Part shown: in pieces, positions 4,561 to 59,315 of the stretch
How the letters are laid out: every line of letters begins with the position of its first letter
How positions within the stretch are numbered: position 1 is the stretch's first letter
DNA from: Echinarachnius parma
Taxonomy: Eukaryota; Echinodermata; Echinoidea; Clypeasteroida; Echinarachniidae
DNA: 64,000 bases
Assembly: GCA_037951105.1 (NCBI GenBank)
Contig: JBAMJV010009680.1
Location: 57,195-121,194 of the forward strand
Direction: 5' to 3'
Made by a program: the position numbers and the translations under genes
The notes under the pieces: generated by a model
Seen by the model: the letters and a program-made list of their open reading frames with translations, nothing else
The model's database searches: none
What the model was told of the DNA's origin: nothing

Positions 4561-4569
4561 CCCTGCTGG

Positions 4570-5045
4570 AAAGTTCACACAGTGAAAACACATTTCATAC
4601 TGTGAAAAAACATTTCACAATGTGAATGAAATGTTTTCACAGTGTGGACACAGCCACACTGTGGTAAACCACATTGTGAAATTTTGATTTCACAATGTGA
4701 AATTTGTTTTCACATTGTGAAATGTGTTTTCACATTGTAAAATGTGTTTTCACATTGTGAAATGTGTTTTCACACTATGGCCACATTGTGAAAATTATTC
4801 CACAATATGAAAACAAGGTTTTCACAGTGTGAATTGATTGCGACATATATTTCACAGTGTGAACAGTATAATTCACAGTGTGGCCTCTCTGTAAAATATA
4901 TTTCACATTGTGAAAAATATAATTCACCTTGAGGAAAATATTTCACATTGTGAACTGGGGAACTCACAATGTGGCCACTCTGTGAACAAAAAAATGACAA
5001 CTCCATGGAAAATATTCACAGTGCGAAAAATATATTTCACTTTGT
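4570..5045. repeat. Palindromic satellite TTCACANTGTGAA, cluster 1
   Basis: Dozens of occurrences of the 13-bp palindrome TTCACA-N-TGTGAA and its halves, spaced irregularly by about 8-25 bp and joined by short AT-rich links. Units are imperfect and not in a fixed register, unlike an ordinary tandem repeat. The same motif forms a second cluster at 11010-11590. Confidence 0.85.
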
Positions 5046-5673: not shown

Positions 5674-5923
5674 TAACTCCCTCCCCATGAATTAATTGAG
5701 TACAAAGGGCCGAGAGATTGGCTTGCCAATGACCTGAATTCGGATCTGTCTTCAATCACACGGTCACCGTGGCCTAGTGGTTAAGGCGTCAGCGTTCCAA
5801 GCTGGAGACCTGGGTTCGAGTCCTGGCGGAGACCAATTTTTCGACCAGTGCCTTTTTTCATTTGGAGGATTAAAGGGAGGAACAATGCTTATTAAGCTAC
5901 GCCTATCATTCTTCTTTCTCAAT
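5674..5923 (+). repeat. 250-bp repeat unit carrying a tRNA-like sequence, copy 1
   Basis: Direct repeat of 6082-6330 with only a few differences, 408 bp apart. Each unit has about 90 bp before the tRNA-like body, a T run just after it, and about 70 bp of downstream sequence. The conserved flanks fit either a duplicated tRNA locus or a short tRNA-derived SINE without a poly(A) tail. Confidence 0.8.
5763..5834 (+). tRNA. tRNA-like sequence, anticodon TCC (Gly-like)
   Basis: A 72-nt sequence can fold as a cloverleaf. The acceptor arms GTCACCG and CGGAGAC pair with one A-A mismatch, the D arm contains GGCCTAGTGGTTAAGGC, and the anticodon arm TCAGC-GTTCCAA-GCTGG places TCC at the anticodon. The T arm has GTTCGAGTCC. 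A T run about 20 nt downstream (near 5852) could end Pol III transcription. The acceptor mismatch and the repeated flanks make a tRNA-derived repeat at least as likely as a working gene. Confidence 0.45.
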
Positions 5924-6081: not shown

Positions 6082-6330
6082 AACTCCCTCCCCATGAATT
6101 AATTGAGTACAAAGGGCCGAGAGATTGGCTTGCCAATGACCTGAATTCGGATCTGTCTTCAATCACACGGTCCCCGTGGCCTAGTGGTTAAGGCGTCAGC
6201 GTTCCAAGCTTGAGACCTGGGTTCGAGTCCTGGCGGAGACCAATTTTTCGACCAGTGCCTTTTTTCATTTGGAGGATTAAAGGGAGGAACAATGCTTATT
6301 AAGATACGCCTATCATTCTTCTTTCTCAAT
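6082..6330 (+). repeat. 250-bp repeat unit carrying a tRNA-like sequence, copy 2
   Basis: Second copy of the unit at 5674-5923. The tRNA-like body is at 6170-6241 with acceptor GTCCCCG/CGGAGAC (one mismatch) and a C-T mismatch in the anticodon stem, so it is less intact than copy 1. A TA dinucleotide run (6332-6368) and C-rich runs (about 6390-6411) follow. Confidence 0.75.
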
Positions 6331-11009: not shown

Positions 11010-11590
11010 AAAAACTACTTATTTCAATGTGGCAATTTCACGCAGTACGCTATGAAAGTCCACACAGTGAACAATTTCATTTTTTCATTTAATATGGTGA
11101 TGGATGTTTCACATTGTGAGGTTTTCACAATGTTGAATTCTATCATTTTTAATATGGTCACACAGTTTCACAGTGTGGTCCACAGTGTGATTCACACTGT
11201 GAGTGAATCTCCACAATGTAATTGTTGGGATTTCATGGTGTAGTGACACTGTTTCACAGTGTGAACCACAGAGTGATGCACGCTGTGTTTCATACTGTGA
11301 ATGAGTGTGTTCTTTTCACAGTGTGAATCTTCACTATGTGAATCTCCACAATGTTGAATTCAAGCATTTCACAGTCTGGTTCACAGTGTGATTCACACTG
11401 TGAACCGCATTGTGATTCACATTGTGAACCACAGTGTGAACGACGCGGCCACGCTGTGAAAACGCCCGAAATACACAGTGTGGATGAGTGAATGAGTATG
11501 TTGTTTTCACAGTGTGGTTCACAGTGTGAATCACAGTGTGAATCAAAGTGCAGTTCACAGTGTGAATCACACTGTGATTCACACTTACTT
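11010..11590. repeat. Palindromic satellite TTCACANTGTGAA, cluster 2
   Basis: Same palindromic motif as 4570-5045, here denser toward the right, where TTCACAGTGTGAA-type units follow each other closely. The repetitive HTV/HSVN peptides on both strands are by-products of the repeat. A C run (about 11610) and a repeat end reading TACGCCACTGCC follow. Confidence 0.85.
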
Positions 11591-11844
11591 CAATTTGTCT
11601 GACGAAATATCCCCCCCCCCCTACACCCACCCCTTGAAAAAATCCTGGGTACGCCACTGCCTACAAGTAGCTAGTTCGAATGTCAAATACATTAATTGAT
11701 TTATTTAATATTGATTGGTTGGTGTGATTGTTTCATTATAATGATTGACTGATTAATTGATAGATTGACTCGATTCAATAACCATAAATAAACACTATTA
11801 ATCAAATCATTGTTTTATTACTTTTAAACTCATTGATCACTGCA

Positions 11845-12432: not shown

Positions 12433-13376
12433 GATAGGGATGTATTAGAGGAATCTATTAATACTGTCCAAATCATAAAAAAAACATACATACAACTATT
12501 TTGGTTTGTTTGAACCTTGTTGCATTCGTATTAGCAGTATTAGTAACATACAGTATTCGATATTTGTAATTTATCTTTCATTAAAAAACCAAGATGCACG
12601 ACTTAAAGTGTCCATTTTGTTATATATCCACGTACATAACCATATACACATCCAGTACAATGAGTTTGTGAATATAACTCAACATGTTTGATCATAACTT
12701 CAGTCATTATAACATCGTCATTACAAGTGACACGTTCAGACATTACTCGGTGGACATATCCGAACAACAGATACACGTTATACCAACCATTCATTACTTT
12801 ATGTACGTGGCAATATTACTAGATAGATCCCTTCAAATCATTATGTATTGTCCAAGAAGCAGAAAATGGTATTTATACCTCATTTAGTATATTCGGTGGA
12901 AGGTTTTCCAGGATATCGATCATTGATGGAGTCTCAATATATGTGGCAGTAGCTGCATTGCCTTTGACGTGGATTCTCTCTTGCCTTTCGGATGATTCCG
13001 TACGTCTGACTGACACTTCCATGTCTTGCAGGTTCTGTGTAGAACGCAACCATGCCCAGTCTCTGCACTCCCGAGGAAGGCCAAGGAACTTCAAGCATCT
13101 GATGCTTGTCAAGTGAGGCAGCGAAGTGACGGATGTTGGGTCTGTGATGGTCACCTTCTGTAGGTTTGAGAAAGACTGTATGCCATTACCAAGTCTCTCT
13201 GGTAGAGTAGATGTCAGACGCGGAGCTTGTATTTCAATACATGTTACCTGTTGAAGAATGACAAGTGAAAAAGAAACATCATAATGATAAATATTATCTG
13301 CAAGTATATGTTAAAGAAGTATACATTTAAAGAAACCAACAATCAACGGAAAACTTCAAAAGAAGAGTAAATGAGA
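12433..13376. repeat. Duplicated LRR-exon cassette, partial copy A1'
   Basis: About 944 bp nearly identical to 171-1115, starting abruptly at GATAGGGATG and ending abruptly after AGTAAATGAGA. It includes the whole exon with its splice sites and about 370 bp on its 5' side of the window, but not the SINE or retroelement insertion of the full cassettes. Confidence 0.85.
12879..13247 (-). CDS. LRR-like exon of NLR gene (copy 2)
   Basis: Internal 369-nt exon, phase 0 at both ends, with acceptor CAACAG and donor GTATAAA on the minus strand. As far as compared, the translation equals copy 1 (618-986); silent or near-silent changes occur around 13099-13110. It carries the same leucine-spaced segments, the W-rich stretch and the charged block. 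Phase symmetry means it can be spliced between its neighbours without a frame change. Whether it is used in transcripts is unknown. Confidence 0.7.
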
Positions 13377-15875: not shown

Positions 15876-16632
15876 ATTCTGCCTGTAGAAGACTAAATTT
15901 CCTTTAATTTGAAATAACGATAATGTGCACTCTGTCGCACATAAATATTAAATATGTCAACTTAAACAAGTGTCCAGTTTCCTTCTGTGCGGAGTATACA
16001 TTATTGATTGCTATGAGGGGCATATTTAAAGAATATTGACTGCCCTTGATAGAGACACGGAAAATATTGCCTGAACTAGATTCATATTGCCCGAGTCGAA
16101 GATACATGATGATGGTGGTGGTGGTGGATGTGGCGATCAACTATCATGAATATGTTTGTACGTAGTGATGACCATGCTATTTATGGTGATAGGGATGTAT
16201 TAGAGGAATCTATTAATACTGTCCAAATCATTAAAAAACATACATACAACTATTTTGTTTTGTTTGAACCTTGTTGCATTCGTATTAGCAGTATTAGTAA
16301 CATACAGTATTCGATATTTGTAATTTATCTTTCATACAAAAACCAAGATGCACGACTTAAAGTGTCCATTTTGTTATATATCCACGTACATAACCATATA
16401 CACATCCAGTACAATGAGTTTGTGAATATAACTCAACATGTTTGACCATAACTTCAGTCATTATAACATCGTCATTACAAGTGACACGTTCAGACATTAC
16501 TCGGTGGACATATCCGAACAACAGATACACGTTATACCAACCATTCATTACTTTATGTACGTGGCAATATTACTAGATAGATCCCTTCAAATCATTATGT
16601 ATTGTCGAAGAAGCAGAAAATGGTATTTATAC

Positions 16633-17001
16633 CTCATTTAGTATATTCGGTGGAAGGTTTTCCAGGATATCGATCATTGATGGAGTCTCAATGTCTGTGG
16701 CAGTAGCTGCATTGCCTTTGACGTGGATTCTCTCTTGCCTTTCGGATGATTCCGTACGTCTGAGTGACACTTCCATGTCTTGCAGGTTCTGTGTAGAACG
16801 CAACCATGCCCAGTCTCTGCACTCCCGAGGAAGGCCAAGGAACTTCAAGCATCTGATGCTTGTCAAGTGAGGCAGCGAAGTGACGGATGTTGGGTCTGTG
16901 ATGGTCACCTTCTGTAGGTTTGAGAAAGACTGTATGCCATTACCAAGTCTCTCTGGTAGAGTAGATGTCAGACGCGGAGCTTGTATTTCAATACATGTTA
17001 C
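16633..17001 (-). CDS. LRR-like exon of NLR gene (copy 3)
   Basis: Internal 369-nt exon with phase 0 at both ends; same splice motifs as copies 1 and 2. The translation differs from copies 1 and 2 at a few residues, including V to L in the EVSVRRTESS block and Y to D in TYIETPS. The near-identity of intron sequence around it points to recent copying. Function as part of an LRR sensor region is inferred from position downstream of a NACHT exon. Confidence 0.7.
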
Positions 17002-17814
17002 CTGTTGAAGAATGACAAGTGAAAAAGAAACATCATAATGATAAATATTATCTGCAAGTATATGTTAAAGAAGTATACATTTAAAGAAACCAACAATCAA
17101 CGGAAAACTTCAAAAGAAGAGTAAATGAGATAAGGACAAATATGTGATGCACAAATAGTTGCGGCTAATTAACGTCGACGTGGTGTGACATGATTGGTAG
17201 AGCTCGCGGCTTTCCAAGTGTTAGATCCCGAGTTCAAAACCTGTACATGCCCACTTCGTTAGTCGAGCATGTCAATCAATTCCTAATTGCTAATCTCTAC
17301 ATTGGAGAATATATTAGTACGATTATTTTATTGGCAGCGTTATGACTTGTTTACTACACTAGAGATGAAGGAGAACGAAATTCCACTCTGTGTGTTTGTA
17401 CTGTACCTGGCGATCATGGGTTATGATAGAGAAAGAGGTTTTTGTACTGTGAAGGATCAGTCATTATTAGGTAATATCTACTGCCTACAGCGCAGAAATG
17501 TATTACATGTTGATTCGTCAGAATTTCCGCAGATTTATTAAAAAGGTTTTATAGTAAACTTGACTTAGGTTCATAGATGGTGTGTCCCCGATATATCAGA
17601 TTCCACTCTCCCCCCCCCCCCCCCCCCCCTTCTATTCCTAAGTCTTAAAGCCCTCAATTAATTTACATTGTCATCAATGAGAGACTATCTAAACAATTTT
17701 TTGTAAGTGTCTCTCTGGATATATAATTGCTCAATGTTCTCTGGAAACATGATATCATCGACACCCTGACAGCTTGACGTTTCACCATCTAACTTTTGTA
17801 ACATAATCTCTTTT

Positions 17815-18683
17815 GGGTAAATATATTACTCATTGCGAATTTTGGATGCGTACAATACGTCGCCATGACACCCCCGACCAGCCGGCTCGCAACGCTTGAT
17901 TCCAGCCAGTATCGAGCCAGCGGTCCGTTGATTGGTCAAGCTCGCTATGGTTCCCGCCTAGCAAGCAAGCCGAGCCAGCGCCTCGCTGATTGGTTTAGCA
18001 CCCGTGTACACCGGCCAATAGAATTTGCCCGTTATGGACCAATTATGAACAAACTCGCTCATGCGAGATTGGAGCGGTTTGGAGCCGCATGAGGGCATAA
18101 ATAGGATTGTTTTACGTTACTTTATATCACAAAGGGTGCGTACATTCTGTCGATGATAGTGGTCATAATATACATAGTATATTATAAAAGATATATAAAT
18201 TTATATATGCATCATAATAAAAAAATAAATGATAGCTCCTTTGGCTATTATATATGTTTGTATGCGTTTATCGGTGTGAGCGCGGGTGCGCACATATTGA
18301 TAACCGTAGGTGGGAATGATTATAAAGATGAATACTTATATTATTATTTTTTACAAGGAGACAGGGAGTGCGCCCTCGTTTGGCATCCACGGACGCAACC
18401 ACGTTTCCCCCATCACGATGGGGGTTTTTCGTGGCCTCCGCGAACTAGTGCATTCGCACTAGTCAGGTGCCAAACGCCTTGCCCATTGTATATGTTTGGC
18501 CTTCGGCCAATTATATAGACATGGCGTAAATAGTCAATTTTGACTGAGTCGCCATCTAAAATAAAAACTAACTAACTCACTTGACAAAGTATTGCAGCGG
18601 CATACGAAACGTCGTGATCTTTTAGATTCCAGGTTGACCATACATTGCGAGACAAACGAATATCACTAGCGATATTATTTCCG
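17815..18683 (+). mobile_element. Retroelement-like insertion in A2, itself interrupted
   Basis: Counterpart of 1802-2219, bracketed by ATAATCTCTTTT at 17803-17814 and 18684-18695. The CCAAT/ATTGG and TATA-like motifs are kept. It is split by a 446-bp insertion at 18131-18576 placed immediately before the hammerhead-like TTGACAA motif. Confidence 0.55.
18131..18576 (+). mobile_element. 446-bp nested insertion with multibranched RNA fold
   Basis: Absent from the otherwise matching site at 2109-2117 in cassette A1, and flanked by TCAC at 18127-18130 and 18577-18580. The left half is very AT-rich and the right half GC-rich with nested inverted repeats. A 9-bp stem (18377-18385 with 18468-18476) encloses two arms. 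Arm one stacks CGGA/TCCG, CCACG/CGTGG and CCCCCAT/ATGGGGG (18390-18440). Arm two is ACTAGTGC-ATTC-GCACTAGT (18444-18463). A further hairpin TTGGCC-TTC-GGCCAA is at 18496-18510. The end is A-rich with CTAA repeats, like a short retroelement tail. A 121-codon frame across it is incidental. Identity unknown: a SINE with a structured RNA, or an organelle-type hairpin sequence, are possible. Confidence 0.6.
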
Positions 18684-19359
18684 ATAATCTCTTTTTGGTT
18701 CACTATTACGTTGTTTGCCTAGGGACTGGGACAGTCTGCCATGTAGTGTCAAAGAGGGAGCCATTCTTTCACCATTCATACATTACTTTTCCGTCTAAAG
18801 TCTTCTTTCATCTCTGTTCAGTATGCACAGCCCTTTGATTACAACATTCATTAAGTTGCACGCTGTTTGAAATGCACCTTCGCTTTTGTACTCCCTCTCT
18901 ACAAGTGAACAGAGTTTTGGTATTGTCATAATAGTCGATATCTAATTTTGTATTGCGATCGAGTGATCGAGTGGTAATGATAATGTTCACTGTCCTTATT
19001 ATCGCGATGCAAAGCATTGCATAATGTATTTGTTTATGTTTCACTCATGTTAGGTTATAGTAATTATTTGTCATCTTGCTACGTAACCTTATTCATTTCT
19101 AAATAGCAATATGTATAATAGGGCCATATTTCTCGATATAATCCTTTCATCAACTTATTTCTCTTTTAATCTGGTTAGACAATTTAAACCCTCTTTACAT
19201 AGGAGCTGTGTCATTTATGTTCCGTAATGCTGCATATCCTGGCACCAGAGTATGTGGATCCACGTCTCCTAGGGCAAAAGTAATGAACTTCATGTTTGTG
19301 AACCCTGGCCCACGAATACGTTTATTAAAATTGTAATTTATCACTTGAATACAAAGATA

Positions 19360-19947: not shown

Positions 19948-20841
19948 ACAGAGTGTCCCAGATATAACGAACCGGATTTCACGGCAGAAAGTTTCTGTCA
20001 TAATGCATAATTTCTTGCATAAGATATACATGTATGAAAAGCTCTGTTTCTCTTCTTTCATTTGATGTACAATTTATGGTACATAATTCACACATTACTG
20101 AATTACAACAATGGAAATTGGTGTTACCAAAATTCAATTTGCACCCAGAAATCGCAAGTTTAGGTGATTGTTTAGGGTAGTAATCGTACTTATTTTGAAA
20201 ACGGACAGACATCGTATAATAATCATGATAGTTCATATGTTTATATTTTATATGACACCTCATTATTACAAAATAAATGATTGATGACAGAAAACGAGAA
20301 CAATGAAAACTTGCTTGATTTCAGCCAAATGAGTAACTTTCCTGACCTACCATGTTTCCCATGTTTTCCCTGATCATCATGCTTGTATATATTCACTTAT
20401 GCATCAAGTCCATTTTCACTGTTTAGTCAGGAAAGCTGAGCGACTTTTTATTTAACTATCCACTCATTTTGGCAGAAAACAGGCATGTTTACTTTGTACT
20501 TGTTCTCTTGCATACATTGTGTATTCTGTGTGCATGGAGTGTCATACAAAAAATAAAAATATCAATTTGTATTCAATGTTTTTCTTTTTTTTTTAAAGTA
20601 CGTTTACTTCCCTAAATACTCATCCAAACTTGCAATTTTTGCGTGCAAATAGAATTTTGGTAACACCAGTTTCCATTGTTTTAATTCAGTCATACGTGAA
20701 TTATGTACCATAAGTGGTATATCAAATGAAAGAAGAGAAACAGAGCTTGTCATTCATGTATATCTCATCAAAGAAATTATTCATTATGACAGAAAATTTC
20801 TGCCATGAAATCCGGTTTCGTTTTTTTCTGGGACACTCTGT
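19948..20841. mobile_element. Foldback element FB-1, copy 1
   Basis: An 894-bp element whose two halves are long imperfect inverted repeats, with termini ACAGAGTGTCCCAG and its complement and TA on each side. Inner sequence is also inverted (CAAATGAG / CTCATTTGG-type pairs). A second copy is at 54843-55745. No coding sequence seen. It ends about 20 bp left of the broken LRR exon. Confidence 0.8.
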
Positions 20842-20862
20842 ATAGTAAGCAGCATGTGTGAC

Positions 20863-21087: not shown

Positions 21088-21850
21088 CTGTTTTTCATCA
21101 AAACAATTAAACAAGTATCAATATATTTGTAAACTATATTCACGTATGTTGACGCACTCAACTAACGGAGATAGTGACGTGCACGGTCATACCGATTTCA
21201 AATGAATGTGAGAAAAACTTGGTAATTCGTTATTGTCCCATTCATGTTTGTATTGTTTGATTGTTTGTTTAACGCAAAATGCTCACTGCGTACTTAGTAC
21301 ACAGTCTAGCGACTAGCACAGAGGCCTGGGTTGGTCGCTCGCTATACATTAAGAAATTAGCGCACAAACAAACAGAGAGTCCAAAGCACCTACAAGTGAA
21401 TGCGAGGGGTAACCAGTGAATACGAGCAAACACGAACTACAGCGAATAGCCTTCCGCAAAAATATACGCAATCATTCGCAGTTTACTTTTTTCTTGCTAT
21501 CTGCGAAAACATGTTATCTACGAATACCCAGTTTCCCCATGATTTAATGCCATACTGATGTTTTATGAAAGCCTTGGTTACCATCATTTGGGTTGTAATC
21601 TATTGCCAAAGGATGTGTCTTCGAACCATAAGATGGGTTCGTTTAAAGTGGTCTACAATATAATATATGTCTATGTTCCTGTAGCAACATAATATACATG
21701 CAATGGTCATAAATTGTATATGCACAAAAGATCTCGCCAAACTCATACGCTCAAAGATAACAATAAAATTGCAGGACTTAAAAACAAAACAATAGGTCTG
21801 AAAATGCCGTGTACACTTTTCGTTGGAATCGACCATGAAGATTATTTTAC
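21088..21850. other. Intron-like sequence
   Basis: AT-rich, no repeat or coding region recognised between the broken and the intact LRR-like exon. Confidence 0.5.
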
Positions 21851-22219
21851 CTTATTTTGAACATACATCGGTAGGGCTTCCCAGATTTTGATCAATGCCG
21901 AAGTCTCAATATCTGTGGCAGTAGCTTTGTTGCCTTCGATGTGGATTCTCTCTTGCCTTTCTGATGATTCTGTTCGTCTGACTGACACTTCCAGGTCTTG
22001 CAGATCTTGCGTAGAACGCAGCCATGACCAGTCTCCGAACTCCCGAGGAAGACCAAGGAACTTCAAGCATCTGATGCTGGTCAAGTGTGGCAGCGAAGTG
22101 ACGGATGTTGGGTCTGTGATGGTCAACTGCTGAAGGTTAGAGAAAGACTGGATGCCATTACCGAGTCTCTCCGGTAGAGTAGATGTCAGACGCGGAGTTT
22201 GAATTTCAATACATGCTAC
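21851..22219 (-). CDS. LRR-like exon of NLR gene (copy 4, diverged)
   Basis: Internal 369-nt exon, phase 0 at both ends: acceptor TTCAACAG before GTAGCATGT and donor AATAAG|GTAAAA on the minus strand. It is the LRR-like exon nearest the NACHT exon. The translation starts VACIEIQTPRL, has LQQLTI and LKFLGLP leucine-spaced segments, the W-rich stretch DWSWLRS and ends ALPMYVQNK. The last residues resemble ALPDELKTK at the end of the NACHT exon, so the two boundaries are probably related. It differs from the other three copies at several residues and is therefore an older branch of the exon family. Confidence 0.75.
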
Positions 22220-22649
22220 CTGTTGAAGAATGACAAGTGAAAAAGTAACATCATAATGATAAATATATGATCCGCAAGTATCTGTTAAAGAAGTATACAT
22301 AACAAAAAACACTCGATCAATAATCAACGGTAAACTTCAATAGAAGAGTAAATGAGATAAGGACAATTAAGTGATGCACAGATATTAACAGCCAATTATT
22401 GAATACAGCTTGGTGTTTTGTGGTCGGACTGGCTGTTGGGGAGGAGGGGGGGGGGTAAAATGTTGGAGACACGCTTCATATATTTAGTAATTAATAATTA
22501 CTTTTTAAGGATTTTCACCTCATGTTGTCTTCTTTATTTATTGTCGCATCATTAGGGAGAATAAACCTCATCCTGTATGTACGCCAATAAGAGAGTAATG
22601 CCCACAGTCAAGACCCTGGATTGTAATCATGGTAATATTTACGTGGTAT

Positions 22650-23458
22650 GACAGGATTGGTATAGCTCGCGGCTTTCCAAGTGTTAGATCCCGAGTTCTA
22701 ACCCTGTAAATGCCCACTTCGTTAGTCAAGCATGTCAATCAATTCCTAATTGCTAATCTCTACATTGGTGAATATATTAGTACGATTTTTCTATCGGCAG
22801 CGTTATGACTTGTATACTACCTTGGAGATGAGAGAGAACGAAATTTCACCCTCTGTGTTTGTACTGTACCTTGTGATCATGGGTTATGCTAGTGATAGAG
22901 GTTTTTGTAGTGTGAATGATCAGTCATTATTAGGTAATATCTACTGTCTGCAGCGCAGAAATGTATTACATTTTAATTCGTCAGAATTTCCGCAGGTTTT
23001 TATTTAATTTGAATAAGACCAAACAGCATAATAGTACCCGCTTGACTTATTAACGACCTTTTAATGTTAACTTGACTGTATAGGTTCATAGCCGGTGTGT
23101 CCCCAATATATCAGATTCCACTCACCCCCCCCCCCCCGCCCCCCCTCCCCCTTCCCTTATCCCTAAGTCCCTTAAAGCCATTAATTAGTTTACATTGTCA
23201 TCAATGAGAGATGACATCAATCTCCTTTGGTCCTTTTTTGTAAGTGTATATATTATATACTTGCTCAATGCCCTCTGGAAACATGATATCATCGTCACCC
23301 TGACAGCTTGATGTTTCACCATTTAACTTCTGTCATGTCTGTAACACAATCTCTTTTTGGTTCACCATTACGTCGATGGCATAGGGACTGGGACAGTCTG
23401 CCATCTACTGTCAAATATGGTGCCTTTATTTCACCATTCATACATTAATTTTCCGTCT
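22650..23458. repeat. Diverged cassette A3, left part
   Basis: Intron, SINE fossil (22650-22790) and C-rich run homologous to cassettes A1 and A2 but visibly diverged. It lacks the 418-bp insertion: the site near 23345 is single. It is cut at 23458 by a TTAA-1 element and resumes at 24297. Confidence 0.8.
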
Positions 23459-26107: not shown

Positions 26108-26675
26108 AAGGGGTAGTTGAGTTCTGGTAGAGAGAGAACAGTTTTAGTCAAACTGATTTTAGTAACCAAAACCTGCACCATTACATTACAACCTAATAGC
26201 TATAACTCCACCATGCTCGAAAGGAATACAAAACATATATACAAACGACTAAGTAAAAAGCCTGCTATCATTAAAAAAGAGCTGTTTAAACTAGAGAGGG
26301 CGCTTTAAAAAAATGCATTTGTTGAAACCAATTTGAATAAAATATTGTGCATGTGCATGATGTTTTGTTGAAATAGTGATTAGATAGAGAGATATTCAAC
26401 AACTATCTAAAAAACCTCTTTTTAAATTTGTTGAAAAGAGGAAGCATTTTAAACCGAATTTTAACGGCTGGTTAATACTTGTGGGGCCCCACATTTATTA
26501 CAAACGCATTATGTTTATGGATATTTCAGCCGTTTCTGAACCGATTTTGATCAAATAAAATTTATTCTGCGATTAAAATTGTATGCTCTTTCACATCTGA
26601 CACTCTTTTTCATTATCTCACAAAAATATTATTTTGTGTAGCGCCCTCTCTACGAAAACTCAACTATCAATTTAA
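26105..26675. mobile_element. TTAA-1 short-form MITE abutting the NACHT exon
   Basis: About 563 bp between TTAA at 26105-26108 and 26672-26675, with ends AGGGGTAGTTGAGTTCTGGT and AACTCAACTATCAA. Its right terminal repeat overlaps the end of the NACHT open frame: the last eight codons (FKLIVEFS) and the TAG at 26650 lie at or inside its terminus. Left flank is intronic segment E, right flank is coding. Confidence 0.85.
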
Positions 26676-26718
26676 ACAAATCGTATACTGAATTGTCGAC
26701 CCTAGCATCACACGCCAC

Positions 26719-28328
26719 CTTTGTCTTGAGCTCATCTGGCAAGGCTTTCATGCCAACGGCTGTGTAGAGAGTTGGTGATGTCAGTACCATAGACTCCGTT
26801 GAGATGAAACTATGTAGAATGTCGGAAACGTTGCCTTGCAAATCACGTGCCTCTGTAGACATGTCCATGATGATGCGAAACCGCTCGCTCTCCTCCAGGT
26901 ATGGAGATGACAGAATTGCACTCATGGCTTTTAGACAAGTCTGTGGATCTGACCCAGCAGCAAATCGGAGAAGGTTTTCGTAGTCCGCTATGGATTGCGT
27001 TTTGTTCACTAACAACTTGTCCAATTCTGTGAATCCCAACTTTTTGAAAAAACGATTCGTGTTCATGTAGCGCTCTGATACGTATTTACCTGCCAAATGT
27101 TCTTGAGCAGACTTATGGAAGTATTCGATTTGCCTTACTGCCGTGTGATTTTGATTCAAGGGATCACATGTTGCATTAGGACTAGATTCGGAGATGATAC
27201 CTAATATGAGCCCATTTGTTAAGGCTTTAGGGTGTTGTTTGAAATCGCTAGGTGCAAACAACAGTTTGTTACTGTCGGCAACCAGTGCTCGTAGAGCTAT
27301 CTCCCCGAGTTGTTGTTGTGTCTTTGTCAGCCAGGCTTTCGTATATTTAAGTATGTCCTTTTCTCTAATCTGATACCACAGATAGAGGAGGATTGCATTG
27401 AAAAGCTCGCTTTGCGTTTTTATGTCAGATAGCAAATTGGTTGGATAGTTCCATAGAGTGCAGGCCATCAAACAGAAAAGTGGAGTTGTTACTAACTCAC
27501 TAAGTAAATCGTTATTGTTCAAGAACGCTTTCAATTCCTGTCCTGATGATGACTTATCCGCAAAGAAGTCATCAATGAAGTGGTTTACGTTTTCTACAGA
27601 AAAACCCTCTATCTCAATTTTAGCATAGACTTTCGCGAGTTCCCCCTTGCATGCCTGGTTGAAATCCTTCTCAAGATGAGGTCGTGTCGTAATAACCACT
27701 CTCGACTGTCTCATGTCCTTGTTCTGAAGAATAGCGATAATATTACTTTGCTGCTCGCTGTCTTTTGTTAAAATACTATCACTGAACTCGTCAAGTCCAT
27801 CAAGGATGATCCAGCAAATATCCTGATTTTCTCGAATGAAGTGTTCAATATGTTTGGGAGTTAGATCTTTTACTTCTGTAAGAAGGTCTCTTTGTATTGC
27901 CTCTCCAAGTGACTGATTCTGTATAATGTCGCGAAGTCTAAGGATAAACAAGAGTGGTAGGTCACTTAACGGGGATCCCTGAACTTCATGCGCCCAATCA
28001 TAAGCCATTTTGGCAACTGCGGTAGTTTTGCCCTTTCCCGCTGCAGCATACATTACAATTCGAGTTGGTAACATTCCGTTTATTTCGGTTGTAAAAATAT
28101 CATTTACCGACTTTTCAAGTTCCACCTTATCTTGTTCTCCGCGATTATTTCCGACGGCATCTTTCTTGTACATTTTGAGTACTGTGTACACATCTTTCAC
28201 ATTGACGTAGTTTGACTGAACCCCTGGCATTCTGTTCACCAGGCAGATTCCTCTCTTATAGCGTTGAACTAGCATGTGGCGACATTTCCCGACGGTGAAT
28301 TGTGATGTGATGGGACGATCCATGTAGC
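26719..28328 (-). CDS. NACHT-domain exon of Death-NACHT-LRR receptor (NLR)
   Basis: A 1610-nt exon encoding an NTP-binding oligomerisation domain of the STAND class, as in cytosolic NLR sensors. The acceptor is a long pyrimidine tract ending CCAG before GCTACATGG; the exon starts two bases into a codon, matching the Death exon's 1-nt overhang. Counting from the upstream Met at 28398 (upstream part is intron), Walker A is AAAGKGKTT at residues 118-126, Walker B WIILDGLDE at 196-204, sensor-like RVVITTRP at 233-240, and a helical-domain motif EYFHKSAQEHLAGKY follows later. The usual first Gly of Walker A is Ala, while Gly-Lys-Thr is kept. A phase-0 donor-like AAG|GTGGCG ends the exon at 26719; otherwise the frame continues to a stop at 26650 within a MITE. 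Confidence 0.88.
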
Positions 28329-28549
28329 CTGGAATCAAATGAGAGAAGAAAAAAACGGATTTCGCCTTATGCAGTCTATATTCGTTACAGATGGACACGG
28401 AACATTTGACATTTGTGAGCTTGCTGCGATGACCGGTACTTGCTAGATTGACAGTGATATATTACTAGTAACAGTACTGGGTTCAGTATTGAGGATGTCA
28501 TGGCTGGGGTTTATTTTCTAAGTATGACATTATGGAAGGGTCATCTTAA

Positions 28550-49039: not shown

Positions 49040-51390
49040 GGAGCTGCAGCTTGCCAGCATGGCCCTGGGAAGCGGGGGTGCTGGGGGTGCTGCAGCACCC
49101 CTGGACATTTTGCAGGGGGCGCTCAGCACCCCCTGCAAAATGCTGTGTATGTTATAATGTATATCATTATGCTTCGTTTTATACGAAACTGTCACACAGC
49201 CGACAGCCACAAATGACGCTTTTTGTGTGTGTGTTACTTTGGGATAATTTGGATATATGCAACTTATGGTTAAACGATATTGGGCAGGAAGGTCAGCTTG
49301 CTACAACTTCTGTAAACTATTTAATCTTCACAAAGATCAGTTACTCAGACGAACATATTAGCACCAGACAGGAAAATGCCCCTTGACATAATCAGTGGCG
49401 GATCTATGGGAAGGGGGGATGTTTAGGGGGTTTAAACACCCCCCCCCCCCCCCCCCCTTGGGCTGCCAAGGGAAAATATATCACTGAAAAAAAGTGAACA
49501 AGAATTACTTACGGGGGTTCAAAATATCAAAAAAATCGCCGCTTCGCGGCTATCACTGAAAAAGTTGTTAAAAATCACTTACGGGGGTTCAAAATAGCAA
49601 CAAAAAATTCACCGCTTCCCGGCTATCGGGTGAAAAAAGTGAACGAAAATCACTTACGGGGTTTAACAAAATAATAATAATCGCCGCTTCGCGGCTATAT
49701 TATCACTGAAAAATGTTTTTATAAATCACTTACGGGGGTTCAAAAAAGCACAAGAAAAATCGCCCCTTGACGGCTATCACTGAAAAAGGTGAACAAAAGT
49801 CGCTTACGGGGGTTCAGAATAGCCACAAAAAATTCCCCGCTTCGCGGCTATCAGTGAAATAAGTGAACAAAAATCACTTACGGGGGTTCAAAAAAGCCAA
49901 AAAAGTCGACGCTTTGCGGCTATCATTGAAAAAGTGAACAAAAATCACTTAGGGGGTTCAAAATAGCAAACAAAAAGTCGCTGCTTCGCGGCTATCACTG
50001 AAAAAAGTTTTACAAAATCAATTACGGGGGTTCTAAATAGCAAAAATTCGCCGCTTCGCGGCTTTCAGTGAAAAAAGTGAACAAAAATCACTTAGGGGGT
50101 TCAAAATAGCAACAACAAATTCGCGGCTATCAGTGAAAAAAGTGAAAAAAAATCACTTACTGGGGTTCAAAAAAGCAAAAAAAAAATCGCCGCTTTGCGG
50201 CTATCACTGAAAAAACTAAAAATAAAAATCAGTTACGGGGGTTCAAAAAAGCAACACAAATTTCGCGGATATCAGTGAACAAAGTGAAAAAAAATCACTT
50301 ACGAGGGTTCAAAATAGCAACAAAAATTCGCCGCTTTGCGGCTATCACTGAAAAAAGTGAAAAAAATAATAAGTTACGGGGGTTCAAAAAAGCAAAAAAA
50401 TCGCCGCTTCGCGGCTATTTATCACTGAAAAAAGTTTTTAAAAATCACTTACGGGGGTTCAAAATAGCAACAAAAATTTCGCGGATATCAGTGAATAAAG
50501 TGAACAAAAATCACTTACGGGGGTTCAAAAAGCAAAAAAAAAATCGCCCCATGACGGCTATCACTGAAAAAGGTGAACAAAAATCACTTACGGGGGATAA
50601 AAAAGCAAAAAAAAATCCCCGCTTCGCCGCTATCAGTGAAAAAAGTGAACAAAAATCACTTAGGGGGTTCAAAATAGCAAACAAAAAGTCGCTGCTTCGC
50701 GGCTATCACTGACAAAAGTTTTACAAAATCAATTACGGGGGTTCTAAATAGCAAAAATTCGCCGCTTCGCGGCTTTCAGTGAAAAAAGTGAACAAAAATC
50801 ACTTAGGGGGTTCAAAATAGCAACAAAAAATTCGCGGATATCAGTGAACAAAGTGAACAAAAATCACTTACGGGGGTTCAAAAAGCAAAAATAAATCCCC
50901 GCTTCGCGGCTATCAGTGAAAAAAGTGAACAAAAATCACTTACGGGGGATAAAAAAGCAAAAAAGTCGACGCTTTGCGGCTATCAGTGAAAAAAGTGAAC
51001 AAAAATCACTTACGGGGGTTCAAAAAAGCCAAAAAAGTCGACGCTTTGCGGCTATCATTGAAAAAGTGAAAACAAATCACTTAGGGGGTTCAAAATAGCA
51101 AACAAAAAGTCACTGCTTCGCGGCTATCACTGAAAAAAGTTTTACAAAATCAATTACGGGGGTTCTAAATAGCAAAAGTTCGCCGCTTCGCGGCTTTCAG
51201 TGAAAAAAGTGAACAAAAATCAATTACGGGGGTTCAAAATAGCGACAACAAAAATCGGTGCTTCGTGGCTATCGCTGAGAAAAGTGAACAAAAATCATTT
51301 ACGGGGGTTCAAAATAGCAACAACAAAATATATACGTATATATAGGCTCAGCACCCCCGGTACAAAAATCGTTCCCAGGGCCCTGCTTGC
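49040..51390. mobile_element. Possible TIR element hosting a satellite array
   Basis: Left flank TTGCCAGCATGGCCCTGGGAA (about 49049) and right flank TTCCCAGGGCCCTGCTTGCCA (about 51371) are imperfect inverted repeats. Both are followed inward by GGGGGTGCTG / CAGCACCCCC. Between them lie a CAGTGGCGGATCTA-type repeat end and the ~1.9-kb satellite. A single element carrying an amplified internal array is the simplest reading, not proven. Confidence 0.45.
49480..51340. repeat. ~70-80-bp satellite with GCCGCTTCGCGGC hairpin
   Basis: About two dozen imperfect units, each with AAAATCACTTACGGGGGTTC, AAAATAGCAA, a CGCCGCTTCGCGGCTATC segment and ACTGAAAAAAGTGAAC. The GCCGC-TTC-GCGGC part is a perfect 5-bp hairpin with compensated and uncompensated variants among units. 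Some neighbouring units repeat as blocks (for example 50641-50830 resembles 49930-50110), so there is a higher-order pattern. Lys/Arg/Gly-rich peptides read from it are artefacts. Confidence 0.9.
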
Positions 51391-54842: not shown

Positions 54843-55745
54843 ACAGACTGTCTCAGATAAAACGAAACCGGGTATCATGGGAGAAATTTTCTGTCATAAT
54901 GAATAATTTCCTTGATGATATATATATATGTCTGGAAAGCTCTGTGTCTCTTCTTTCATTTGATGTACAACGTATGGCACATAATTCAAGCATGACTGAA
55001 TTAGAACAATGGAAAGGGGTGTTACCAATATTCCATTTGCACGCATACATTTTAAGTTTGGGTGAGTTTTAAGGGTTGTAAACGTACTTATTTTTAAAAA
55101 GGACAAACTCCACATAAAAGTTCATATTTTTATCTTTTACATGACACCTCATGATAAACAAATAAATGATTTATGCCAGAGAACGAGTACAATGAAAACA
55201 TGACTGATTTCTGCCCAAATGAGTGAAAGTTGAGTAAGAAGTCGCTCAGCTTTCCTGAATTAGCAGTTGACAATGGACTTTGATGCATGAGTGAATTTAC
55301 ACAAACATGGGGATCAGGGAAAACACGGGAAACAGGCTAGATCAGGAAAGTTACTCATTTGGGCTGGAATCAAGCATGTTTTCATTGTACTCGTTCTCTG
55401 GCATAAATCATTTATTTTTTAATCATGAGGTGTCATATAAAAGATAAAATTATGAATTTGTATGCGGTATTTGTCCTTTTTCAAAATAAGTACGTTTACT
55501 ACCCTTAAAACCCACCCCAAAACCTCACCCAAACTTGCAATTTCTGCGTGCAAATAGAATCTTGGTAACACCTCTTTCCATCGTTCTAATTCAGTCATGC
55601 GTGAACTATGTGCCATAAGTTATATATCAAATGAAAGAAGAGACACAGAGCTTTTCAGACATATATATATCATCAAGGAAATTATTCATTATAACATAAA
55701 ATTTCTGCCATGAAACCCGGTTTCGTTTTTTCTGGGACAGTCTGT
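54843..55745. mobile_element. Foldback element FB-1, copy 2
   Basis: 903 bp with inverted termini ACAGACTGTCTCAG and the complement of ACAGACTGTCCCAG and long imperfect arms, matching 19948-20841. The two arms of one copy are about as similar to each other as to the other copy. Confidence 0.8.
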
Positions 55746-58629: not shown

Positions 58630-59315
58630 CGCAATCGAGGTTCGCACATTAATAACTTTTTATTACGCTATAACCATTCAGAAATGTTGTATCATTGGAA
58701 AGCGTGAATCCTCCTCTTTACATTGATATAACATTTGCTATGAATATTTTATCATGGAATGTGCATCGCATCCAAATGTAGGGCAGAGTCAAAAGTGAAA
58801 TGTTGCAAAATGCACTGATTTTGTCAACAGAGTGCCTTCCTTGGCTTGAATGGGGGTGAGGTGGTCATGCATTCAAGCCACGTTTTAATCTTCAAAACAA
58901 AAGGAAGGCACACTGTTGACAAAATCAGTGCATTTTGCAACATTTCATTTTTTACTTTGCCCTACATTCGGATGTAATGCACATTCCATGATAAAATATC
59001 CATAGCAAATGTTATATCAATGTAAAGAGGAGGATTCACGCTTTCCAATGATACCAAATTTTTGAATGGTAATAACGTAATAGGCATTCAAGCCACATTC
59101 AAACAAAAGGAAGGCCCTTTGTTGACAGAATCAGTGCATTTTGCAACATTTCACTTTTTACTTTGCCCTACATTTGGATGCAATGCACATTCCATGATGA
59201 AATACTCATAGCAAATGTTATATCAATGTACAGGGGAGAATTTACGCTTTCCAATGATACCAAAATGTATCAATGGTAATAACCTAATAGAAAAGTTATT
59301 AATGCGCAAACCTCT
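58630..59315. mobile_element. Foldback element with a third arm
   Basis: Arms of about 210 bp (58640-58860 and inverted 58875-59075) share TTCACGCTTTCC / GGAAAGCGTGAA, ATATAACATTTGCTATG and AATGCACTGATTTTGTC. A third copy of one arm, in the orientation of the second, runs 59085-59310. Terminal parts read TTGCGCATTAATAACTTTT-like. Confidence 0.7.

Follow-up and report, generated by a model that had tools for sequence, protein, structure and literature searches.

LINEs generate target site duplications of variable length and may carry AT-rich microsatellites at their 3' ends, as described in the relevant part of PMC8969392. The terminal rules of Helitrons are given in the same part of that source: canonical elements display 5'-TC and CTRR-3' ends and insert between A and T, while those of a second type display a 5' T, hairpins near both ends and asymmetric terminal inverted repeats, and insert upstream of T. 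Mitochondrial DNA (mtDNA) of sponges and, as cited there, of fungi harbors repetitive hairpin-forming elements (PMC2800124, in the section concerned), and the section of PMC2567098 on primate numt junctions reports microhomologies of 1-7 bp.

The locus considered here is a 446-bp insert in one of two direct copies of a cassette, A1 (from base 1) and A2 (from 16015), both situated in the window, i.e. the whole 64-kb stretch of DNA that was analysed. Self-BLAST aligned the copies at 97.7-97.8 % identity on each side of position 18131: A1 1-2116 matched 16015-18130 (97.7 %) and A1 2113-2852 matched 18577-19319 (97.8 %), the 446 bp filling exactly the gap between the two matches. Because these matches overlap by 4 bp (A1 2113-2116), TCAC flanks the insert at either end in A2 and is single in A1, a pattern expected from microhomology or from an insertion that duplicates 4 bp of its target. 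The initial annotation had claimed that the insert is absent from the matching A1 site, and this was borne out by a clean empty site in a cassette of 97.7 % identity. Its description as a nested insertion was likewise supported by the 4-bp direct repeat, by the A1 empty site and by the absence of the host segment from a third paralogue, B. The shift of both structure and composition at the TCAC junctions makes insertion more likely than deletion in A1, without proving it. No further copy of the insert was detected within the 64-kb window. Coordinates are collected in Table 1.

Table 1. Features of the 446-bp insert and of its surroundings (window positions)
Feature	Position	Strand	Basis or remark
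Insertion of 446 bp, in A2 but not in A1	18131..18576	+	self-BLAST and empty-site comparison
TCAC, left copy of 4-bp direct repeat	18127..18130		single in A1 at 2113-2116
TCAC, right copy of 4-bp direct repeat	18577..18580		self-BLAST
AT-rich first domain, closed by long-range helix 18134-18151/18360-18376	18134..18376		minimum-energy fold
GC-rich second domain: closing stem, stacked arm 18388-18442, hairpin 18444-18463	18377..18476		minimum-energy fold
Third hairpin, core TTGGCC/GGCCAA	18487..18519		minimum-energy fold
Fourth hairpin (ATGGCG/CGCCAT, TAGTCA/TGACTG), close to insert 3' end	18521..18555		minimum-energy fold
A-rich end, AATAAA at 18560, AACTAACTAAC at 18566-18576	18556..18576	+	sequence
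ORF of 121 codons, opened by first ATG of insert	18153..18518	+	probably not coding
TATA-like box CATAAATA	18096..18103	+	sequence
Five CCAAT/ATTGG motifs, starts 17931, 17989, 18015, 18039, 18068	17931..18072		motif scan, A1/A2 alignment
Outer insertion (419 bp once the 446 bp are subtracted)	17819..18683		A1/A2/B alignment
Left copy of 16-bp direct repeat flanking outer insertion	17803..17818		15/16 identical to right copy
Right copy of 16-bp direct repeat flanking outer insertion	18684..18699		15/16 identical to left copy

The outer, promoter-like segment is missing from B at a site near 23346. Alignment suggests that it represents an insertion relative to B, the alternative being a deletion in B between the 16-bp repeats. 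The insertion point of the 446 bp (18127-18131, ambiguous through TCAC) lies 31-35 nt downstream of the first base of the TATA-like box, and TCACTT in A1 resembles an initiator. The CCAAT/ATTGG motif at 18068 is displayed by A2 and absent from A1. A point placed at random in the outer element of 419 bp would fall within 4 bp of the start position in ~2 % of cases, a figure that concerns one case chosen post hoc. Sigma-70 type sites (4 versus 2.6 in shuffles) and terminator-like hairpins (3 versus 1.2) were near shuffle levels in the region 17800-18700.

The predicted minimum-energy fold contained the stems named by the initial annotation, namely the closing stem, the stacked arm, the 8-bp hairpin and the hairpin following it. 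Within the first domain, hairpins were predicted at 18165-18185, 18191-18208, 18229-18251, 18268-18303 and 18312-18351. The closing helix of the second domain (18377-18387/18466-18476) counted 11 pairs in the model, the outer nine being uninterrupted Watson-Crick pairs followed by one G-U and one G-C. Its stacked arm was made up of helices 18390-18393/18437-18440, 18399-18403/18430-18434 and 18407-18413/18418-18424, and its perfect 8-bp hairpin paired 18444-18451 with 18456-18463. The 6-bp stem of the third hairpin extended over 18496-18501/18505-18510. GC content was 29 % in the first half of the insert and 49 % in the second.

Comparison with shuffled sequences indicated structure beyond chance. 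The whole insert (446 nt) folded at -149.2 kcal/mol (z -7.94), a stability equalled by none of 100 shuffles, while the segment 18355-18520 displayed a z of -5.40 (0/200 shuffles as stable) and, on the reverse strand, of -4.81 (0/200). The insert contained six perfect hairpins that do not overlap (arm length 6 or more, loop 2-10), at least six being reached in 3 out of 2000 block shuffles; its three GC-containing hairpins were matched in number by 7 out of 2000 local shuffles. The earlier statement that the insert is unlike anything else in the window was nevertheless not upheld. When the window was scanned as 770 tiles of 166 nt (30 shuffles per tile), the best insert tile, 18427-18592, which runs 16 bases past the insert end, ranked fifth with a z of -6.3; the four stronger tiles (starts 58765, 11372, 4566 and 45900) were all located at inverted repeats found by self-BLAST. 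Five of the 285 half-overlapping tiles of 446 bp displayed at least six perfect hairpins, and at least three GC-containing hairpins were present in 15, including the tile at 18287. A cruder count of perfect inverted repeats gave 10 for the insert, compared with 8 and 28 at the 95th and 99th percentiles of the window. The structure of the insert is significant against chance yet not unique within the window.

No fold tile of the window is stronger than the one (z -11.8) at a 422-bp palindrome, 58661-59082, that is 87 % self-inverted. Repeated inverted self-matches were found at 4574-4974 and 11107-11585, where the fold tiles at 4566 and 11372 displayed z values of -8.6 and -8.9, respectively. 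Two further repeats of the fold-back type, 54843-55745 and 19948-20842, are mutually related imperfect palindromes of ~900 bp, self-inverted over their full length at 82 % and 75 %, respectively.

Other features of the window comprised a NACHT-domain exon at 26650-28458 (-) (Pfam E 2e-18) and four related ORFs of 145-164 aa at 612-1049, 12873-13310, 16627-17064 and 21842-22336 (-), of which the two that were scanned matched no Pfam family. As judged from sequence, the exon and its related ORFs are an NLR-type gene region with duplicated parts. The NACHT match points to an animal with many NLR-type genes, possibly an amphioxus, echinoderm, cnidarian or sponge. A minisatellite with units of ~72 bp occupied 49479-51329, one frame being open for 188 codons in a stretch. 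Two tRNA-Gly (TCC) genes or tRNA-derived repeats, at 5762-5835 and 6169-6242, were included in a ~255-bp direct repeat of 98 % identity, the copies of which start 407 bp apart.

The best explanation, tentative as it is, is that the 446 bp quite possibly represent an unassigned mobile element, short and non-autonomous, that inserted recently into A2 after the A1/A2 duplication. It is favored by the clean A1 empty site and the 4-bp direct repeat, by a hairpin density exceeding that of shuffles, and by the 3' junction, at which hairpin 18521-18555 is followed by AATAAA and then by AACTAACTAAC. The element was possibly retroposed: its 3' end, consisting of a hairpin, an A-rich stretch and a short AACT repeat, suggests target-primed reverse transcription. 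An RNA would in that case have been copied by LINE-type machinery recognising its end by the 3' hairpin, and TCAC would have been duplicated on insertion. The copy would have landed near the initiator position of a candidate CCAAT/TATA promoter-like segment, within an older insertion, and would have inherited its hairpins from the source sequence. That both strands fold agrees with what hairpin-rich DNA should do. Should the promoter-like segment be active, transcription from it may now start at roughly the insert's first base.

Several observations weigh against a mobile element. No second copy was present in the window, and the direct target duplication looked for at the ends of SINE- or LINE-derived retroposons was found as TCAC, only 4 bp and hence short. 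The 3' tail AATAAAAACTAACTAAC comprises only 2-3 repeat units, and the AACT stretch, besides being short, gave matches at chance level (with at most one mismatch, two in the window, both at the insert 3' end, against a chance mean of 1.66). The AT-rich part harbors two additional AATAAA motifs (18216 and 18224). Good Pol III boxes were not detected in the insert: compared with the A and B box consensus, the best A box displayed two mismatches and the best B box three, and the best B-like site was situated upstream of the A-like one, the wrong order for a tRNA-derived SINE. As for other element types, the insert ends, AAAGGGTGCG and AACTAACTAAC, displayed no terminal inverted repeats such as those of TIR DNA transposons or MITEs, and no boundary placement within the TCAC ambiguity produced the TG...CA ends of a solo LTR. 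Kinship of the insert 5' end with that of the outer element (repeats D3 and D6) was discarded, 143 out of 200 shuffles scoring equally.

The facts in favor of a mobile element also fit a deletion in A1 between two TCACs or an end-joining capture of DNA. In the first case, which is unlikely, the 446 bp would be ancestral and lost from A1, and the outer segment would form one unit with a CCAAT/TATA promoter, a structured transcript from about +1 and AATAAA near its end. Such a unit agrees with an insert that begins near the predicted start site, opens a 121-codon ORF with its first ATG and displays an AATAAA starting 16 bp before its last base. The deletion, however, would need to coincide with both ends of a structured block, given the shift at the TCAC junctions; the 6-bp inverted repeat across the joined empty site is weak (20 out of 470 A1 junctions have one); the ORF lacks periodicity and two more AATAAA are located inside the insert.

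The length of this ORF was reached in 3 out of 3000 shuffles, which drop the hairpins and may therefore understate the frequency of such ORFs in hairpin-rich DNA. It displayed no three-base periodicity (chi2 1.9, p 0.93, the usual 5 % limit being 12.6). The power of the test is only moderate: applied to 13 tiles from the NACHT exon, it gave values of 5.5-29.2, five of them below 12.6. Pfam yielded nothing above cut-off (one sub-threshold match, E 0.077), and no relatives were confirmed among 15 pattern matches in viral contigs and 55 in prokaryote contigs. Despite the unusual length, the protein-coding reading was rejected and the ORF is probably non-coding.

Capture at a double-strand break of a hairpin-rich organellar fragment, mitochondrial or plastid, from the host or an associate, followed by end joining with a 4-bp microhomology, is rather unlikely. 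GC-rich hairpins within AT-rich sequence resemble the mtDNA elements treated in the section of PMC2800124 mentioned above, and the 4-bp TCAC is comparable with the 1-7 bp given for primate numts in that of PMC2567098. The CpG observed/expected ratio of the insert (1.29 versus 0.82 in the window) may also be counted in favor of capture, although 9 % of tiles reach 1.29 and the outer segment stands at 1.33. On the other hand, the 3' AACT stretch is unexpected for organellar DNA, no motif evidently recurs among the hairpins, in contrast to the elements in that section of PMC2800124, and the six insert frames (standard code, X at stops) gave no organellar gene above the Pfam cut-off, the plastid-type subunit NdhL being found below threshold (E 0.1).

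A bacterial, phage or plasmid origin was rejected: phages and plasmids gave one chance-level match each (E 0.4), and at E 0.01 nothing was found in E. coli genomes. Five exact patterns taken from the insert had 0 matches in viral contigs, a search that diverged relatives would escape. None of these phage, plasmid, E. coli, viral and prokaryote collections is intended to cover animal genomes.

A non-autonomous element of Helitron type, whether canonical or of the second kind, is improbable. Placing the boundary at 18127 gives a TC start (TTTATA/TCACAAAG) and an A/T empty site (TTTATA/TCACTTG), which is a loose feature, this boundary being one of several. A hairpin is situated near the 3' end and CTAA precedes that end by one base. 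Nonetheless, the insert ends with CTAAC directly before TCAC rather than with CTRR directly before T, and its 3' hairpin stops 21 nt short of the end, the hairpin of Helitrons usually lying about 10 nt from it. Clear asymmetric terminal inverted repeats of the second type were not detected either, the best match between the 5' 60 and the 3' 80 bases being 7 out of 8.

It is very doubtful that the 446 bp constitute a functional structured non-coding RNA gene or RNA element. The z of -7.94 across 446 nt with a multi-domain predicted fold speaks for it, as does the higher stability of the + strand (-149.2 versus -129.4 kcal/mol, a difference of 19.8), but a strand difference as large was displayed by 24 out of 300 global and 30 out of 300 block shuffles, and strand preference was consequently rejected as evidence. 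Values of z were -6.5 (+) and -5.7 (-) with global shuffles and -6.8 (+) and -5.7 (-) with block shuffles, while energies calculated with DNA parameters were nearly equal (-70.9 and -71.2). Since the strand difference is also reached in shuffles and the DNA energies are nearly equal, the data single out no RNA on one strand; hairpin-rich DNA explains the fold no less well than a selected RNA. Where the initial annotation had proposed a branched RNA, the branched fold, predicted beyond chance, was retained, whereas its RNA nature was not, as both strands fold and differ within the range of shuffles. An RNA gene is also disfavored by the single copy in the window, without homologue, and by Rfam, which gave no match at gathering level in the insert, ribozymes included, and four below it, the lowest E being 1.1, with 17.2 bits where the cut-off is 80.

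A resemblance to group II introns (GTGCG near the insert 5' end) was dropped for lack of an Rfam match, and a hammerhead retrozyme was rejected, the sole window match to the hammerhead core motif CTGANGA...GAAA lying outside the insert at 11599. Least probable of all is a selfish, highly structured RNA of ~440 nt and of an undescribed class that would have been retroposed at a promoter start, would be transcribed by the host promoter from about its first base and could be remobilised by it.

If the insert is an ordinary mobile element, it is another young insertion by which segmental duplicates of a NACHT-gene region differ, with A1 and A2 usable as an empty and filled site pair. Should the fold be kept in other copies, or should start-site targeting prove real, it would represent a mobile structured RNA capturing promoters.

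Among the known systems, Helitrons of both types, as presented in the part of PMC8969392 cited above, resemble the insert by a possible TC start, an A/T target and a hairpin near the 3' end, and differ from it by their CTRR end and by the place of the hairpin, which in the insert lies 21 nt from the end. The hairpin elements or GC clusters of mtDNA in the section of PMC2800124 likewise display series of perfect hairpins, GC-rich ones occurring within AT-rich sequence; the insert differs from them in having no evident common motif and no organellar gene above cut-off and in lying in a nuclear-looking region that bears NACHT genes. SINEs and the 3' ends of 5'-truncated LINEs differ from the insert, which is devoid of good Pol III boxes and of a known head, duplicated only 4 bp and is present once in the window, but they share with it the short insertion, the target duplication, the 3' hairpin and, less clearly, the A-rich or tandem-repeat 3' end.
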